DNA from: Hyphomicrobiales bacterium
Lineage (GTDB): Bacteria; Pseudomonadota; Alphaproteobacteria; Rhizobiales; Xanthobacteraceae
Length of the DNA: 64,000 nt
Assembly (NCBI GenBank): GCA_017305715.1
Contig: JAFKKG010000010.1
Span: 331,216-395,215 of the forward strand
Reading direction: 5' to 3'
Positions 5,840 to 63,568 of this stretch are shown piece after piece. Numbering within the stretch: the first letter of the stretch is position 1; each line of letters starts with the position of its first letter. The notes under the pieces were generated by a model, which was not told the DNA's origin, made no database searches, and was given only the letters and a program-made list of their open reading frames with translations. A program made the translations under genes and the position numbers.

Positions 5840-6160
5840 TCAGGTGAGACCGAGCCCCGGCGGCAGTCCAAGCCCGCCGGTCAACGCCTGCATCTTTTCC
5901 TGCATCGCGGTCTGCGCCTTGCGCTGCGCATCATTGTGCGCGGTCACCAGCAGGTCTTCGAGGATTTCGCGGTCTTCCGCCTTCATCAGCGACGGATCGA
6001 TCCTGACGCCCTTCACTTCCATCTTCGCGGTCATCCGCACGGCGACCATGCCGCCGCCGGAAATGCCCTCGACTTCGACATTGCCGAGCTCTTCCTGCAT
6101 CGCCTGCATCTTCGATTGCAGCTGCGCCGCCTGCTTCATCATGCCGAGAAAATCAGCCAT
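5840..6160 (-). CDS. YbaB/EbfC nucleoid-associated protein
   Basis: 106-residue YbaB/EbfC-family DNA-binding protein. These dimers coat DNA and are nearly always encoded between dnaX and recR, as here. The sequence opens [15 protein letters not shown] with the typical amphipathic helix and has the family core [12 protein letters not shown] and KGVRIDPSL. The start at 6160 is set by AAGGAAACC just upstream; an ATG 15 codons earlier is possible but lacks this site. The short distances in the block suggest one transcript. Confidence 0.93.
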
Positions 6161-6201
6161 TTGGTTTCCTTGCGGTTTTCCTTGCGTGCGTGCTCTGGAG
6201 A

Positions 6202-8034
6202 TCAATCGTCGTCGCTGTCGGAAAGCTCGCTGGGGTCTTCACCGACAATATCGGGTTCCGGCGGTTCGGCGGCAAGCCTGCGCACCTCGACGACCTTGGC
6301 GCCGGGAAACCGCGCCAGCACTTCCTGCACGCGCGGATCGGCCTCTGCGGCGCGCGCATGCTCGTTTTTGGCATGTTCGTTCTGCGAGCGCAGCGTCGGC
6401 TGCCCGGCCTCGTTGGACACGATCACGGTCCAGCGCCGGCCGGTCCATAATTCCAGCTTGCGCGAGAGATCGCTGACCAGCGCCCGCGCCGCGTGACGCT
6501 CGAGCGCGACTTCAAGCTGCCCATCCTCGATGCGCACCAGGCGCATGTCGGCTTCGAGCGCGGCCTTGATCAAGAGATCGCGCTTCTCGCCCGCCAGCGC
6601 CACGAGCTGCGGAAAATTCGTGATTCGCAGCGCGGGCGCGGATTGCGGCTCCGGCGCAGGCGAGGCCATTTGCGGACGTGCGGACGCCTCGGCTCCGCTT
6701 CTTTGTGCGACGGACGCGCGCACTGGTGCGGACGAGATCGCGGACACGGTGGAAGCCGGCGCAGCCGATCGCGCCGCAGTTCCGGAAACCACCGGCGAGC
6801 CGCCGCCGTTCTGTTCCAGCATCCTGATCGCTTCGTCCGGGGTCGGCATGTCGGCGACATAGGCAATGCGCACCAGCACCATTTCGGCCGCGGCCGCCGG
6901 CCGGGTTGCGGTCTGCACCTCGGCGATCCCCTTGAGCAGCATCTGCCACATCCGCGACAGCACCCGCATCGACAGCTTTGCGGCAAAATCGCGCGCGCGC
7001 ACCCGCTCGGTCTCGCCATAGGCGACGTTGTCGGCGGTGGCCGGCACGACCTTCACCCGGGTGACGAAATTGACGAATTCGGCGAGATCGCTGAGCACCA
7101 CGACCGGATCGGCGCCGACGTCATATTGCTCGCGAAATTCCTTGAAGGCGCTGGCGATATCGCCGCGTGCCAGCGATTCGAACAGGTCGATCACCCGCGT
7201 GCGGTCGGCGAGGCCAAGCATCTGCCGCACCGCATCGGCGCGCACGAGGCCGGCGGCATGCGCAATCGCCTGGTCGAACAGCGACAGCGAATCGCGCACC
7301 GAGCCCTCGGCCGCGCGCGCGATGATGCCGAGCGCCTCGGGCTCGACCTCGACGCCTTCCTTGGTGGCGATATTGGACAGATGGCCCATCAGCACATCGG
7401 CCTCGACCCGGCGGAGGTCAAAGCGCTGGCAGCGCGACAGCACCGTGACCGGCACTTTGCGGATTTCGGTGGTCGCGAACACGAATTTGGCGTGCTCCGG
7501 CGGCTCCTCCAGCGTCTTCAAGAATGCGTTGAAGGCCGCGGTCGACAGCATGTGGACTTCGTCGATGATGTAGACCTTGTAGCGGGCGCTGGCCGGCGCA
7601 TAGCGCACGCTGTCATTGATCTGGCGGACATCGTCGACGCCGGTATGGGACGCCGCGTCCATTTCCAGCACGTCCATGTGCCGGCTTTCCATGATCGCCT
7701 GGCAGTGCACGCCCAGCGTCGGCATCTGGATCACCGGCCCCTTCACCGAGCCGTCGGCCATTTCGTAGTTCAGCGCGCGGGCGAGGATCCGCGCGGTGGT
7801 GGTCTTGCCGACCCCCCGCACCCCGGTCAGAATCCAAGCCTGCGGAATGCGTCCGGTTTCGAACGCATTCGAAACGGTGCGGACCATGGCCTCCTGGCCG
7901 ATCAGGTCTTCGAAACTGGAGGGGCGGTATTTGCGCGCCAGAACCCGGTAGGGCTTTCCAGCCTCGGCGCCACCAGGATCGAGGCCGCCCGCGTTGCCTT
8001 CAGGTTTTTCTTGGGGAGCGCCAGCGTCACTCAT
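6202..8034 (-). CDS. dnaX: DNA polymerase III subunits gamma/tau
   Basis: 610-residue clamp-loader ATPase. Walker A GVRGVGKT is at 71-78, Walker B DEVH at 158-161 and the sensor SRC at 200-202, followed by the collar domain and a long Ala/Pro-rich linker (about 400-470). The C-terminal tau-like part ends in an acidic tail (SELSDSDDD). Oddly, the zinc-finger region, normally with four Cys, has only Cys111 here (LGVHCQAI). Whether a short gamma form is made is not evident. It is followed by ybaB and recR, with the SRP RNA gene upstream on the same strand. Confidence 0.96.
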   Translation of the reverse strand: MSDAGAPQEKPEGNAGGLDPGGAEAGKPYRVLARKYRPSSFEDLIGQEAMVRTVSNAFETGRIPQAWILTGVRGVGKTTTARILARALNYEMADGSVKGPVIQMPTLGVHCQAIMESRHMDVLEMDAASHTGVDDVRQINDSVRYAPASARYKVYIIDEVHMLSTAAFNAFLKTLEEPPEHAKFVFATTEIRKVPVTVLSRCQRFDLRRVEADVLMGHLSNIATKEGVEVEPEALGIIARAAEGSVRDSLSLFDQAIAHAAGLVRADAVRQMLGLADRTRVIDLFESLARGDIASAFKEFREQYDVGADPVVVLSDLAEFVNFVTRVKVVPATADNVAYGETERVRARDFAAKLSMRVLSRMWQMLLKGIAEVQTATRPAAAAEMVLVRIAYVADMPTPDEAIRMLEQNGGGSPVVSGTAARSAAPASTVSAISSAPVRASVAQRSGAEASARPQMASPAPEPQSAPALRITNFPQLVALAGEKRDLLIKAALEADMRLVRIEDGQLEVALERHAARALVSDLSRKLELWTGRRWTVIVSNEAGQPTLRSQNEHAKNEHARAAEADPRVQEVLARFPGAKVVEVRRLAAEPPEPDIVGEDPSELSDSDDD

Positions 8035-58718: not shown

Positions 58719-58997
58719 ATGTTTCGCAAACTTTCTCTCGCAGCCGTCGCCGCAATCGCTCTGACCGCTGCTGCCGTCGCCCCTGCTTCGGCTGGCGGTC
58801 ACGGTGGTCATGGCGGCGGACATGGCCATGGCGGACACGGCATGCACGGTGGCCATGGCCACGGTCATGGCGGTCACTGGGGTCACGGTCACCGCCGCTT
58901 CGGCGGACATGGCTTCTACGTCGGCGGAAGCTGCTGGCGCACGGTGTGGACCGATCTCGGGCCGCGTCGCGTCTATGTCTGCGATCGGCTGCTCTGA
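58719..58997 (+). CDS. Secreted His/Gly-rich peptide
   Basis: 92 residues. A signal peptide (to about PASAGG) is followed by a low-complexity tract of GGH/GH/GGH repeats with 13 His, then a short folded tail with a CWRTVWTDLGPRRVYVCD segment and two Cys. The His density suggests binding of Ni, Zn or Cu in the periplasm. Its place just after modABC is suggestive, but molybdate is an oxyanion and would not bind such a tract. GGAGA lies about 9 nt before the ATG. Confidence 0.8.
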   Translation: MFRKLSLAAVAAIALTAAAVAPASAGGHGGHGGGHGHGGHGMHGGHGHGHGGHWGHGHRRFGGHGFYVGGSCWRTVWTDLGPRRVYVCDRLL

Positions 58998-59056: not shown

Positions 59057-60514
59057 TCATTGACCACCCGCATAGGCTTTCACCAGACGGTACAGATACT
59101 CGCCGCCTTGGAGGAACGATTTGACGAGAATCCGCTCGTCGCGCCCATGCGCGCGGCTTTCTGCGATGTCGCCCGCCAGCCCCGAATGCCCATAGGTCGG
59201 GATGCCGGCATTGCGCAGATAGCTGCCGTCGGTGGCGCCGGTGCTCATCGTCGGCAGCACCACGGCGCCGGGCCAGAACTCCGCCGACAATTTTGCGATC
59301 GGCCCGATGACCTCGTCGCTGAGCACCGAAGGCGCGCTGAGCACCGGTGAATCGAGCTGCGTCACCGCGATCTGCTCGTCGGCCAGCACGCGTTCGAGCG
59401 TTGCCTTCACGCCGTCGATCGGCTCACCGGGAATGACCCGGCAATTGACCTTGGCGCTTGCCAGTTGCGGCAGCGCGTTGATGGCGGATCCGCCTTCGAG
59501 CATCGTCGCGACGCATGTGGTTCGCAATTGCGCGTTGAAGAACGGATTGGCCGTGAGACGCATGACGGGCACCGCGGCCGGATCGGACGGTCCCGACAGT
59601 GCCGCGCGCACATCGTCGGCGAACTGGCCGCCCTCCATCTGCGCGGTACGTTCGAAATAGGCGCGGGTCGTATCGGTCAGTCTGATGGGAAAGCTGAATG
59701 CCGCAAGCCGGCCGAGCCCCGCCGCCAACCGATAGATCGCATTGTCCCTCACCGGAACGGAACTGTGGCCGCCCTTGTTCTTTACGGTCAGCGCGTAGCT
59801 GACCGAGACTTTTTCGCTGGTTTGCACCGAGTTGCGGACAGGCTTGCCATCCTTCAGGCCCACGCCGCCGCCTTCATTGAGCGCGAATTCGGCATCGATC
59901 AGATCGCGATGGTTTTTCAGCAGAAATTGAATGCCGCGCCCGTCCCGGTCGAGGATTTCCTCGTCGGTCTCCAGCGCCACGATGATGTCGCGCTCCGGCT
60001 TGTAGCCCTCCTGCCGGTAGCGAATGAGATTGGCGACGAAGCTGGCTGCCATGTATTTGTCGTCGCCGCTGCCGCGTGCATAGAAATAGCCGTCCTGCTC
60101 GACCAGCTTGAACGGATCGGTCGACCAGTCCTCGGGGGCAGCCGGCACCACGTCGATATGGGCGAGCAGCAGGATCGGCTTGCGCGCGCCGGTGCCGCGA
60201 AGCCGCGCCACCAGATTGCCCTTGCGCGGCGCCGGCGACAGCACCCGGACATCGGCTTCGGGAAAGCCGCCGGCGCGCAGGCGCGCCGCCATCGCCTCGG
60301 CTGCCTTCAAGGTATCGCCGGTCGCGGTCACCGTGTTGATCTCGATCAGTTCCTTGTAGATGTCGAAGGCGCGCTGCTGGTCGGGGTTCAGGCCCTCGAC
60401 GGCCGCGGCTCCGGATGATGTCAGGCAAGTCGACGTCAATGCCAGCGCACACAACGCCATCACGCGATAAGCGAAACCTGAACGGGAAATCCGGCGCATC
60501 TCACCCACCCTCAT
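59057..60514 (-). CDS. Secreted M20-family metallopeptidase
   Basis: About 485 residues from the ATG at 60514, or 480 from the one at 60499; the choice is open. A signal peptide ends near SSGAAAVEG. Zinc-ligand regions are LLAHIDVVPA (His-Asp), YARGSGDDKYMAA (Asp), ALETDEEILDRDGRG (Glu pair) and the late TYGHSGLAGDIAESRAHGRDE (split: TYGHSGLAG and HGRDE). The lid domain has NKGGHSSVP. It may be an exported carboxypeptidase or aminoacylase-like enzyme. It lies last in a co-directional run after the secreted RidA, 16 bp downstream of its stop. Confidence 0.9.
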   Translation of the reverse strand: MRVGEMRRISRSGFAYRVMALCALALTSTCLTSSGAAAVEGLNPDQQRAFDIYKELIEINTVTATGDTLKAAEAMAARLRAGGFPEADVRVLSPAPRKGNLVARLRGTGARKPILLLAHIDVVPAAPEDWSTDPFKLVEQDGYFYARGSGDDKYMAASFVANLIRYRQEGYKPERDIIVALETDEEILDRDGRGIQFLLKNHRDLIDAEFALNEGGGVGLKDGKPVRNSVQTSEKVSVSYALTVKNKGGHSSVPVRDNAIYRLAAGLGRLAAFSFPIRLTDTTRAYFERTAQMEGGQFADDVRAALSGPSDPAAVPVMRLTANPFFNAQLRTTCVATMLEGGSAINALPQLASAKVNCRVIPGEPIDGVKATLERVLADEQIAVTQLDSPVLSAPSVLSDEVIGPIAKLSAEFWPGAVVLPTMSTGATDGSYLRNAGIPTYGHSGLAGDIAESRAHGRDERILVKSFLQGGEYLYRLVKAYAGGQ

Positions 60515-60530
60515 TTCGAATTGCAGGAAG

Positions 60531-61016
60531 TTATTTCGAATCCTTCGCGGCGACAACTTCGATCTCAACCAGGAATCCGGGATTGGCCAGCGAGGCGATG
60601 CCGATCACCGAGCGCGCCGGGAGATTGGGCTGCGCGCCGCCGAAGAATTGCGTGTAGCCCTCCATGAAGGCCTTGAAGTCCATCGGCGCGCGGGCGTCGT
60701 GGACCAGGAACACCTGCATCTTGATGACATCGGCCATGCCGAGCCCCTGCCCTTCCAGGATCTGCTTGATCCGGTTGAGCACGCCGACGGTCTGGGTCTT
60801 GACGTCGCCATAGGCCTGTGGGGTCTGTGGATCGGCATCCCTGTTGATCACGGGCGGCACTTGCCCGCTGACATAGGTGATGACGGAATCGCCCGTCACC
60901 TTCACCGCCTGCGCAATCGGGAATGTCGAATTGGGTATCGGGTATCGGACGATCTCGGCCTGCGCGGCGGTCGAGCCGAGCAGGATGGCGGCCAGTGAAA
61001 GCATCTTGCAGTTCAT
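60531..61016 (-). CDS. RidA/YjgF-family protein with signal peptide
   Basis: 161 residues. A clear signal peptide (MNCKMLSLAAILLG to AAQAE) is followed by a RidA domain: VSGQVPPV, QTVGVLNRIKQILEGQGLGM, VIKMQVFLVHD and PARSVIGIASLANPGFLVEIE. The Arg of SARSVIG-type sites, which binds the substrate carboxylate, is present (PARSVIG). RidA hydrolyses reactive imines; most are cytoplasmic, so export is unusual. GGGGAGACGAAG precedes the ATG. It lies between a cytochrome c gene and a secreted peptidase gene. Confidence 0.9.
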   Translation of the reverse strand: MNCKMLSLAAILLGSTAAQAEIVRYPIPNSTFPIAQAVKVTGDSVITYVSGQVPPVINRDADPQTPQAYGDVKTQTVGVLNRIKQILEGQGLGMADVIKMQVFLVHDARAPMDFKAFMEGYTQFFGGAQPNLPARSVIGIASLANPGFLVEIEVVAAKDSK

Positions 61017-61035
61017 CTTCGTCTCCCCATGATCA

Positions 61036-61479
61036 TTATCTCGGATATCTCTCGGGCCGCACGCGCTTGACGTCGTCGGCGCTGACGGCGTCCTGATACT
61101 GGTTGCCGAAATGGGTCCGGACATAATTGACGACGGCGGCGACCTGGGCATCGGTCATCATCGCGCCGATCGGCGGCATTGCGCGCTGTCCCCTGACCAC
61201 GACATAGACCGGATAGCCTCCGGATTCGAGATTGCTGTCCTGGGCGAGCGACGGATAGGTGCCCGCGCCGATCGCGCCTTTGCCGTCGGGCATGTGGCAC
61301 CCCTGACAGGCACTGGCAAACAACTCCTCGCCGGTCGCCTCGGTAAACCTGAAGCCCGGGCTCAGCGGGGCCGCAGGCCGCGGACGGATTTCTTCGTCGG
61401 CATGGGCTGGATGCGACAGCAAGGCCAGGACCGTGAGGACGCCCAACAGTAAAGCGAACACAAAGCGGCTATCCCTCAA
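61036..61479 (-). CDS. Class I cytochrome c, exported, probable TTG start
   Basis: 147 residues from TTG at 61479. A signal peptide (RFVFALLLGVLTVLALL) ends near AHADE. The haem motif is CQGCH (58-62), and the axial Met is in QRAMPPIGAMM. It is a single-haem electron carrier. No ATG gives a signal peptide; AGGGG lies about 4 nt upstream of the TTG. It is 19 bp from the RidA gene, and 196 bp downstream of the amine oxidase gene on the same strand, so is a plausible electron acceptor for it. Confidence 0.88.
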   Translation of the reverse strand: MRDSRFVFALLLGVLTVLALLSHPAHADEEIRPRPAAPLSPGFRFTEATGEELFASACQGCHMPDGKGAIGAGTYPSLAQDSNLESGGYPVYVVVRGQRAMPPIGAMMTDAQVAAVVNYVRTHFGNQYQDAVSADDVKRVRPERYPR

Positions 61480-61675
61480 GACGCCCCTCTTTGGCAGGCT
61501 CCTCTGGATGAGGTCTTGCTTTGCGGCAAAATCGCAGACCCTGATGGCGAGGAACCCGCAAGGCGGGCGGCTCGAACCATGGGGCCGAGCATGTTCCCAC
61601 GCAGACCGGAGAGGGAGCGCACCCTCATCGCGAATGCAACTCGATCTGATCCTGTCACGCTCTCGCCACATCGCA

Positions 61676-63274
61676 TCACGTCCTGACGACACGTTGGTGC
61701 AGCCGCGTGATGGCATCGAGCGAAGACAAGATCGCGCCTTCCTGCCAGGCCGGGATGTAGGAGGCGTGCTCGCCGGCAAGGACGATCCGGCCGTCGATCT
61801 GGCACAGATTGTCATAGTGCTGTTCGCGCATTTCCTCGGTCCAGCCGCCGGCGCAGCCCAGCGTGAAGGGTACCCGGTGCCAGGCCACCGCGATCCCATT
61901 CTCGAACTCGGCGCGGTATTGCGGATGAAGGCGGGAGCCGAGTTCGACCGCGCGCGCCACCCGATCAGACGGCGTCATCGACGTGAGTTCATACGCATTG
62001 GCGCCGCCATAGACATAGGCACCGAGCAGTACCCCGCGCCCGGTTCGATTGTAGTCGCTGCTCGGATAGGAGATCTGCCGGATCGGCAAATCCGTGTAGC
62101 TGATGCCGCCATAGATCGCCTCGTCTTCCTCCCAGAACCGGCGCTTGAATTGCAGGCCGATCTTGACGGAGGACGTATAGGGCACCGCGTCGATCGCGGC
62201 CTTCATGCGCGGACCGACGTCGATCTGAATCTGGCTCAGGATGGACAGCGGAATGGTGCACACGCACCAGTCGGCTTTTGCAAGCTGCGGCGTGCCGGGC
62301 GCCTTTGCATCCACATAGCTGACCGTGACGCCACTATCATTCTGCTGGATCCGGGTGACCTTCGCATCGTAGCGGATGAGATCGCCGACTTGCCGCGCGA
62401 ATGCCTTGCCGATCATATCCATGCCGCCGACGGGCTGAAACATCGTGGTCTGGAATTCATGCAGGGCAAAATTCCGCAAATATCGCCAGAGCTGTGATTG
62501 CAGGATATCCGACAGCCCGATCGGCTCGCCGGCAACCGGCGCGGCGCCGAGGCCACCGCCGGGGTTTTTGGCGTAACCGCGAACTTCGGCCGAAATCAGA
62601 TTGGCCTTGTAGGCGTAGTTCTTGTCCAGCGCGCCCCACGACTGCATCGCCTGCAGCAGCATCTGCTTGTCCTGCACCGACACGGCCTCGTCGAGCTTGC
62701 TCTGCTGCGTGACCTTGGCGAGCAATTCCGAGACATGCCCCTGGAAGTCGGTCTTGATGTCGCGGATCCGCTGCGGTTTGCCGTCGAACGCATGGGAGGC
62801 GTGCAGCAGCGCATTGTGATTGAGTTGGATGAAGGGTTCGAGCGTCACGCCGAGCCGCTTGCAATAGTCCAGCACGGCGCGGTGGTGATAGGGAATGCGC
62901 CACGGGCCCGGATTGAGATAGAGGCCTTGCTCGAAGCCGCAGGTCTGGGTCGCGCCGCCGAGTTCGGTAAAACTGTCGCCGCCGCGCAGCGTCCAGTTGC
63001 GGCCACCGGGGCGGCTGTTGAATTCCAGCACTTGCACCTGGTAGCCGGCGCGACGCAATTCGAGCGCGGCCGTCATGCCGGCGAGGCCCGCGCCCAGGAT
63101 CAAGACCGAGGCGCTTTTGGCATCGCCTTCCAGCTTGATCGGGCCCATGTAGGCGGATTCCGATGCGAAGCCGAGGCTGGTCATGGCGTGAACCATCGCG
63201 GCGCTGCCGGCGACCGAGCCCACCAGCGACAGCAGATCGCGCCGGCTCACCCCTGTCTTACCCTGGTTCTGCAT
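61676..63274 (-). CDS. Tat-exported flavin amine oxidase/dehydrogenase
   Basis: 532 residues. The twin-arginine signal is SRRDLL (10-15). The FAD site has GAGLAG (61-66) and RPGGRNWT (88-95). The C-terminal FAD segment is VLAGEHASYIPAWQEGA. It belongs to the monoamine-oxidase/L-amino-acid-oxidase superfamily. The substrate is unknown. The start at 63274 (MQNQGKTGVSRRDLL) puts the twin Arg at the right depth; an ATG 30 codons earlier does not. With the downstream cytochrome c it may act as a dehydrogenase, as NicA2 does in Pseudomonas. Confidence 0.92.
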   Translation of the reverse strand: MQNQGKTGVSRRDLLSLVGSVAGSAAMVHAMTSLGFASESAYMGPIKLEGDAKSASVLILGAGLAGMTAALELRRAGYQVQVLEFNSRPGGRNWTLRGGDSFTELGGATQTCGFEQGLYLNPGPWRIPYHHRAVLDYCKRLGVTLEPFIQLNHNALLHASHAFDGKPQRIRDIKTDFQGHVSELLAKVTQQSKLDEAVSVQDKQMLLQAMQSWGALDKNYAYKANLISAEVRGYAKNPGGGLGAAPVAGEPIGLSDILQSQLWRYLRNFALHEFQTTMFQPVGGMDMIGKAFARQVGDLIRYDAKVTRIQQNDSGVTVSYVDAKAPGTPQLAKADWCVCTIPLSILSQIQIDVGPRMKAAIDAVPYTSSVKIGLQFKRRFWEEDEAIYGGISYTDLPIRQISYPSSDYNRTGRGVLLGAYVYGGANAYELTSMTPSDRVARAVELGSRLHPQYRAEFENGIAVAWHRVPFTLGCAGGWTEEMREQHYDNLCQIDGRIVLAGEHASYIPAWQEGAILSSLDAITRLHQRVVRT

Positions 63275-63400: not shown

Positions 63401-63568
63401 TGTCGTCCCCGCGACTTCCGTCGTCGTCCTCCGCGAGGGCGGGGGACCCAGTACGCCGCGGCGTTCATTTTGCAAGGCATTTAACGTCTGCGCTCTCATT
63501 GATGGGCCGCGGTGTGTGGGTCCCCCGATGCGCAATTGCGCATCTGAGCTCAAGGCCGGGACGACACT
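63401..63568. repeat. Intergenic palindrome, family A/D
   Basis: TGTCGTCCCCGCG at the left and GGCCGGGACGACAC at the right are inverted ends. Inner GGGGGACCC and GGGTCCCCC arms are also inverted copies. It lies upstream of the amine oxidase gene. Confidence 0.75.

Follow-up and report, generated by a model that had tools for sequence, protein, structure and literature searches.

The closest described counterpart of the locus considered here is the lao-cccA-ridA cluster of Gluconacetobacter diazotrophicus PAL5 (GDI2456-2454), published in 2016 and tied to plant-hormone production (PMC5053998). In that bacterium insertions in lao, which encodes an L-amino acid oxidase (LAAO), abolish indole-3-acetic acid (IAA) and leave tryptophan largely unused, transcript levels of the three genes drop together and, in earlier work cited in the same paper, cytochrome c maturation (ccm) mutants make about 5% IAA. 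The cluster was described there as conserved in Caulobacter and Xanthomonas, and a role was suggested for its cytochrome and RidA. More generally, kinetic work within a set of 25 flavin amine oxidases (FAOs) led its authors to conclude that dehydrogenase function is well predicted by a twin-arginine translocation (Tat) signal plus an adjoining cytochrome c gene (CytC) (PMC12224317), RidA and sometimes Rid3 genes cluster with amine oxidases dependent on flavin adenine dinucleotide (FAD) (PMC4433059), and Rid3 proteins lower the levels of LAAO-made imines in vitro (PMC5619798). Here we describe a four-gene cluster at positions 59057-63274 of a 64,000-nucleotide stretch of a Hyphomicrobiales contig (JAFKKG010000010.1), hereafter the window. 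We propose, with a probability of roughly 0.7, that it encodes a periplasmic cytochrome-c-coupled L-amino acid dehydrogenase system with its own imine hydrolase. Its features are as follows.

61676..63274, minus strand: flavin amine oxidoreductase of the L-amino acid oxidase type, predicted to be Tat-exported, 532 aa (Pfam PF01593 Amino_oxidase, 2.4e-57; PDB 2jae; Tat motif SRRDLL; residues R126, Y420 and K371)
61036..61479, minus strand: monohaem cytochrome c, predicted to be exported, with one CQGCH and a TTG start at 61479 (Pfam PF13442 Cytochrome_CBB3/Cytochrom_C, 2.1e-12; signal MRDSRFVFALLLGVLTVLALLSHPAHA)
60531..61016, minus strand: RidA-family imine deaminase, predicted to be exported, with an ATG start at 61016 (Pfam PF01042 Ribonuc_L-PSP, 2.2e-19; signal MNCKMLSLAAILLGSTAAQA; PDB 9bka and 9bkc)
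59057..60499, minus strand: M20-family metallopeptidase, predicted to be exported, with an ATG start at 60499 and an alternative start at 60514 (Pfam PF01546 Peptidase_M20, 6.7e-29; NCBIfam NF006596)
61465..61599, no strand assigned: short interspersed repeat, mostly within the flavoprotein-cytochrome gap (bases 11-145 of window 61455-61675 match elsewhere in the genome)

All four open reading frames (ORFs) match Pfam families; they share one strand, the minus strand, and carry predicted export signals, in agreement with the preliminary description of this DNA. Signals were called throughout by a simple rule of charge, hydrophobic run and cleavage motif (not SignalP), which finds S-R-R-D-L-L of the Tat type in the flavoprotein and Sec-type signals in the other three products. 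The starts listed for the cytochrome, RidA and M20 genes are corrected ones. The flavoprotein and cytochrome genes are separated by 196 bp counted from the TTG start (193 bp counted from 61482), cytochrome and RidA by 19 bp, and RidA and M20 by 16 bp with the 60514 start or 31 bp with that at 60499.

An LAAO-type flavoprotein gene followed on the same strand by a cytochrome c gene and then ridA is the content and order of lao-cccA-ridA. The Tat-type LAAO has 533 aa in G. diazotrophicus and 532 aa in the window, the two being respectively 34% (PMC5053998) and 38% identical to the Rhodococcus opacus enzyme. The window differs in having an M20 gene behind the three and a repeat in the lao-cccA gap, and the available text of PMC5053998 states export for the LAAO alone, saying nothing of export of the bacterial RidA or CccA. 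The comparison was made with the quantitative PCR primer stretches in Table 1 of that paper, with frames taken from the stated positions. The lao stretches YPSHGYF (codons 404-410) and QVIHPNY (codons 447-453) correspond to YPSSDYN (403-409; shuffle p 0.06) and SRLHPQY (447-453; p 0.03) in the window, and the cccA stretch NYVRSH to NYVRTH (0/500 shuffles); the cccA forward and both ridA stretches did no better than shuffles (0.38, 0.91 and 0.44), and an exact search for one lao primer in 204 loci found none. The two clusters are likely to belong to one family.

The closest solved full-length relative of the window flavoprotein is R. opacus LAAO (RoLAAO, PDB 2jae), matched in a PDB search at 1.1e-87 over residues 54-530 and identical at 175 of 463 aligned positions. 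NicA2, the Tat-type amine oxidase relative that the preliminary description had cited for its use of a cytochrome c, is not named among the best 60 of 103 PDB matches. Among the matches listed, the nearest named relative is that of Bradyrhizobium erythrophlei GAS478, with 88% identity, which suggests that the source organism is a Bradyrhizobium or closely allied to that genus. In RoLAAO, R84 and Y371 bind the substrate carboxylate; these letters fit the 2jae chain if its count runs one lower. R84 aligns with R126. Of the 107 relatives with 50% identity or more, 106 have Arg here and the other has a gap; all 24 more distant ones have Arg. Y371 aligns with Y420, which is Tyr in 104 of the 107, Phe in the remaining three, and Tyr in 24/24 of the distant set. 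Full-length similarity and these two residues together place the protein in the L-amino acid oxidase family, and since it is nearest to RoLAAO and retains the Arg and Tyr, L-amino acids appear likelier substrates than amines in general. Of the earlier suggestion of an imine-producing Tat flavoenzyme acting on amines, the exported amine-oxidase family therefore stands but the amines are less probable.

Relatives were collected from one contig scan (the best 80 of 206) and from samples of 41, 385 and 398 genomes, in which 7, 19 and 27 genomes, respectively, had a match at 1e-60, the genome of the window being included each time. Neighbours were counted in the 107 loci of at least 50% identity, limited to those with enough flank, and the 24 loci below 50% were scored separately. 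In 101 of 105 relatives the cytochrome gene directly follows the flavoprotein gene in the same orientation, the misses being L060, L061, L063 and L138, and RidA adjoins the flavoprotein gene in 72 of 104, with a rule-predicted signal in 71; the exception, L065, has an apparently broken RidA frame. Two pairs of loci are identical in sequence, and with duplicates removed the figures become 99/103 and 70/102. In the relatives of less than 50% identity RidA is present in 12 of 23, in ten of them with a signal. The gene order recurs in alpha-, beta- and gammaproteobacteria, and for that reason the cluster is more than a chance arrangement. The conserved neighbourhood supports the chain proposed from the window alone, in which flavoprotein, cytochrome c and RidA are all exported.

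Of the 32 relatives without an adjoining RidA, L038, L084 and L138 carry the gene at another place in the locus. That the gene is hidden or has diverged was considered and rejected: a loose tblastn search of the 32 downstream stretches, some of them shortened where a contig or locus ends, yielded a single chance match of 12 residues. The Bradyrhizobium strains carrying L060, L061 and L063 (about 6001-7593) also carry the full cluster (L051, L056 and L054), and the two sets form a natural comparison of oxidase with dehydrogenase. In two distant clusters (L130:860-1480 and L137:822-1484) the cytochrome slot is apparently taken by a different, longer c-type cytochrome, a weak match. Copies that look broken include L183, with a stop inside the flavoprotein, and L190, where the flavoprotein is in two ORFs, besides the RidA frame of L065. 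The flavoprotein of L030, in a record titled Mycobacterium sp. KBS0706, is 92-97% identical to the Inquilinus copies L034 and L037, and the Mycobacterium label is probably wrong or the record contaminated.

In one metagenome-assembled genome (MAG) of the Acidobacteriota (L084:5995-7944; a single MAG record), flavoprotein and cytochrome c form a single ORF whose hydrophobic linker resembles a former signal peptide, and a RidA predicted to be exported lies convergent behind it. Natural FAO-CytC fusions also occur in the set of PMC12224317, and the window shares with the NicA2/Pnao/CycN type treated there a Tat flavoprotein of the same superfamily and an adjoining Sec cytochrome c. The window thus shows, by the rule used for signals, the very combination from which dehydrogenase function was predicted.

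In the RidA protein, Arg136 and the catalytic Glu154 are invariant across the alignment (88 of 88 rows, with the window entered twice). Conservation of R136, the catalytic Arg, is as expected of a Rid imine deaminase, the importance of this residue in Rid proteins being established (PMC4433059). The best matches among 45 PDB sequences are the Rid3 proteins PSPTO_3006 (9bka, 3.3e-27) and PFL_1385 (9bkc, 5.6e-23), the nearest solved relatives (PMC5619798); the accessible text of that paper uses neither 'signal' nor 'periplasm', and Rid copies resembling PSPTO_3006 by eye have no signal peptide. Elsewhere a RidA-family protein is treated under cytoplasmic steps (PMC9537276), and a Rid6 protein in a nicotine cluster is proposed to clear an enamine in a pathway whose enzymes, except NdhAB, are described as cytoplasmic (PMC7688666). 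The genome of the window holds 16 Rid-family genes and three other genomes hold 19, 9 and 9. Among the 46 loci examined in these four genomes, 40 were scored and two reached the cut-off for export, the window copy and L233, both adjacent to the flavoprotein gene; two further genes of the 40 passed weakly, at 18 and 20. The cluster RidA of one genome (G596) was not among the 46, its cluster copy (L116) being exported by rule, and that of another (G682, locus L228) adjoins the flavoprotein gene and has no export signal. An exported RidA is indeed unusual, as had been remarked from the window sequence.

The signals of flavoprotein and RidA tend to go together. Across 161 labelled loci, counting the window and two duplicates, both signals are present in 95 and neither in 15; 2 have the flavoprotein signal only and 0 the RidA signal only, and 46 have a Tat signal and no adjoining RidA. 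The two with a flavoprotein signal only are L065 and L197; the signal of L197 has no basic residue. Of the rest, L110 has no adjoining RidA and fails the Tat rule, L175 has neither an adjoining RidA nor a Tat score, and in L204 RidA is exported by rule and the Tat region unscored. In one genus, apparently Pseudomonas-like because its RidA resembles P. syringae PSPTO3006, 35 of 149 genomes hold a relative (37 matches, 30 of them turned into loci). In one lineage of this genus charged residues break the hydrophobic stretch of the Tat signal and the adjoining RidA has no signal, and sister lineages retain both.

The M20 protein scores 618 bits with the NCBIfam model NF006596 (cut-off 349), and several N-acyl hydrolase models match it below their cut-offs. 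Its gene is next in line in 33 of the 75 relatives whose flank is long enough. These 33 belong to Bradyrhizobium or its near kin (28/39 Bradyrhizobium, 1/1 Tardiphaga and 4/9 alphaproteobacterial MAGs, the last from the two largest MAG groups), and the gene is seen in seven further loci with short flanks, all from the genome samples. It is found in 0/12 Xanthomonas, 0/3 Pseudoxanthomonas and 0/2 Inquilinus clusters, in all of which cytochrome and RidA are present. This distribution rules it out as a core component and weakens the claim that it belongs to the pathway; judged by gene order, it is a lineage-specific neighbour.

The reading that we prefer, then, is of a periplasmic L-amino acid dehydrogenase, because of the family and structure match, the carboxylate clamp, the constant cytochrome neighbour, the fusion, the RidA Arg and Glu, the tie between RidA export and the flavoprotein, and the published clusters. 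The Tat-exported flavoprotein would take a hydride from an L-amino acid, reducing its FAD and leaving an imino acid; the exported monohaem cytochrome c would accept the electrons singly and pass them to the respiratory chain, in place of O2 and H2O2; and the exported RidA would, in that compartment too, accelerate the step in which water splits the imino acid into keto acid and ammonium. Where it is present, in Bradyrhizobium and its close relatives, the exported M20 peptidase may act on peptides or N-acyl amino acids and so provide free amino acids. We infer these steps from the chemistry of the family, and infer likewise direct electron transfer, that this organism uses amino acids as substrates, what M20 does and the benefit of RidA export.

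Several observations weigh against this reading. RidA does not adjoin the flavoprotein gene in 32 of 104 relatives and, because of that absence, is on this evidence not essential to the system; the cytochrome is present in only 7 of 24 relatives below 50% identity, lies on the other side of the flavoprotein gene in L138, and is absent together with RidA from the paralogues L060, L061 and L063. An earlier Tat rule gave a less clean table, with both signals in 92 loci, neither in 13, that of the flavoprotein alone in 4 and that of RidA alone in 4. The joint loss of the two signals is a single event on the tree, one independent pair with no statistical weight, and for that reason it illustrates a link between the compartments of the two proteins and does not prove it. 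The primer link to the G. diazotrophicus genes is weak, 2/6 in-frame stretches having p below 0.05 and out-of-frame stretches also reaching 0.004 and 0.03. Finally, PMC12224317 sampled 2911 sequences from a search with NicA2, not LAAO, to which the window protein is nearer, and its available text contains none of the terms 'amino acid oxidase', 'LAAO', 'RidA' and 'imine'.

The paralogues L060, L061 and L063, and the fact that the closest solved relative is named an oxidase, also suit a periplasmic L-amino acid oxidase that passes its electrons to O2 and forms H2O2, as R. opacus LAAO does; the cytochrome would then deal with peroxide or have no part in the reaction. Such an enzyme is also known in Chlamydomonas, where LAO1, a periplasmic LAAO paired with a RidA protein (LAO2/RIDA) as in the window, forms indole-3-pyruvate (IPyA) and IAA from tryptophan and produces peroxide; that system is eukaryotic and, as described, has no cytochrome in its cluster (PMC10805672). 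The flavin-adjacent Lys linked to O2 reactivity (K371) is retained in 107/107 and 24/24 relatives, which would point the same way, but it is retained in nearly all dehydrogenases too (PMC12224317). Against an O2-using enzyme stand the cytochrome as the most constant neighbour, its fusion in L084, the dehydrogenase behaviour predicted by Tat signal and adjoining CytC (PMC12224317) and the low IAA of G. diazotrophicus ccm mutants (cited in PMC5053998), and we regard it as unlikely. The side-chain pocket differs from that of RoLAAO, Q228 being replaced by F274 and W426 by A475, positions that we take to line it in RoLAAO. A RoLAAO-like pocket, which bears on substrate specificity and does not define the family, is thus lacking. 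The difference could suit a system whose substrates are N-methyl compounds or amines other than amino acids, in which the M20 enzyme frees the amine from N-acyl precursors; N-acyl hydrolases are found among the M20 enzymes, and such models match this one, albeit below their cut-offs. We consider this improbable, given that the Arg and Tyr binding the alpha-carboxylate are retained almost everywhere, that M20 is missing from the Xanthomonas, Pseudoxanthomonas and Inquilinus clusters and that the similar G. diazotrophicus cluster works on tryptophan (PMC5053998). With Arg and Tyr retained and the pocket altered, the likelier substrates are L-alpha-amino acids, selected by side chain differently than in RoLAAO. 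A device for plant interaction, making chiefly IPyA and auxin from tryptophan and not serving general amino acid use, would fit the many carriers in genera that we take to be plant-associated, and also the lao mutants of G. diazotrophicus, which no longer make IAA and with which rice forms smaller roots (PMC5053998). Broad-substrate chemistry would do likewise, making this a use of the system and no different mechanism; as a separate explanation it is very improbable.

The surroundings of the cluster add little. The contig ends at the end of the window, on the upstream side of the flavoprotein gene, and window 63401-63500, upstream of that gene, has matches of 82-93% identity at four further sites in the genome. 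The interspersed repeat shares about 15 bases with the start of the cytochrome gene and is listed at 10 places in the genome including itself, the other nine being 71-84% identical. Searches for promoter and terminator consensus sites found one and two, against 1.2 and 3.8 expected in shuffles. The plus-strand neighbours resemble an ABC transporter, whose binding protein appears to be of the molybdate type, and a murein endopeptidase; a functional tie was considered and set aside, no relation being obvious. At window 58719-58997 a small Gly/His-rich protein with a signal-like start and no Pfam match is possibly metal-binding.

The idea set out here is largely in print (PMC5053998, PMC4433059, PMC12224317). 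In the open-access literature we found neither systematic export of this RidA type nor its loss alongside the Tat signal, and neither an LAAO-lineage flavoprotein-cytochrome fusion nor an explicit dehydrogenase prediction for LAAO-type enzymes. What is added, then, is the export of the RidA type, its co-loss with the Tat signal, the natural fusion and the prediction that L-amino acid oxidases include a lineage of dehydrogenases. It seems to us evenly balanced whether, more broadly, LAAO-type flavoproteins include a further cytochrome-c dehydrogenase lineage respiring amino acids in the periplasm, with Rid as a compartment-matched part that is exported or returned to the cytoplasm together with the flavoprotein. 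If so, RidA export would be a genomic marker of where the imine arises. The proposed system is also an example of a damage-control enzyme sent to the compartment in which the damage is done. It predicts that many annotated L-amino acid oxidases feed respiration through a partner cytochrome and do not make H2O2, and in plant-associated bacteria the same chemistry can yield indole-3-pyruvate, an auxin precursor.

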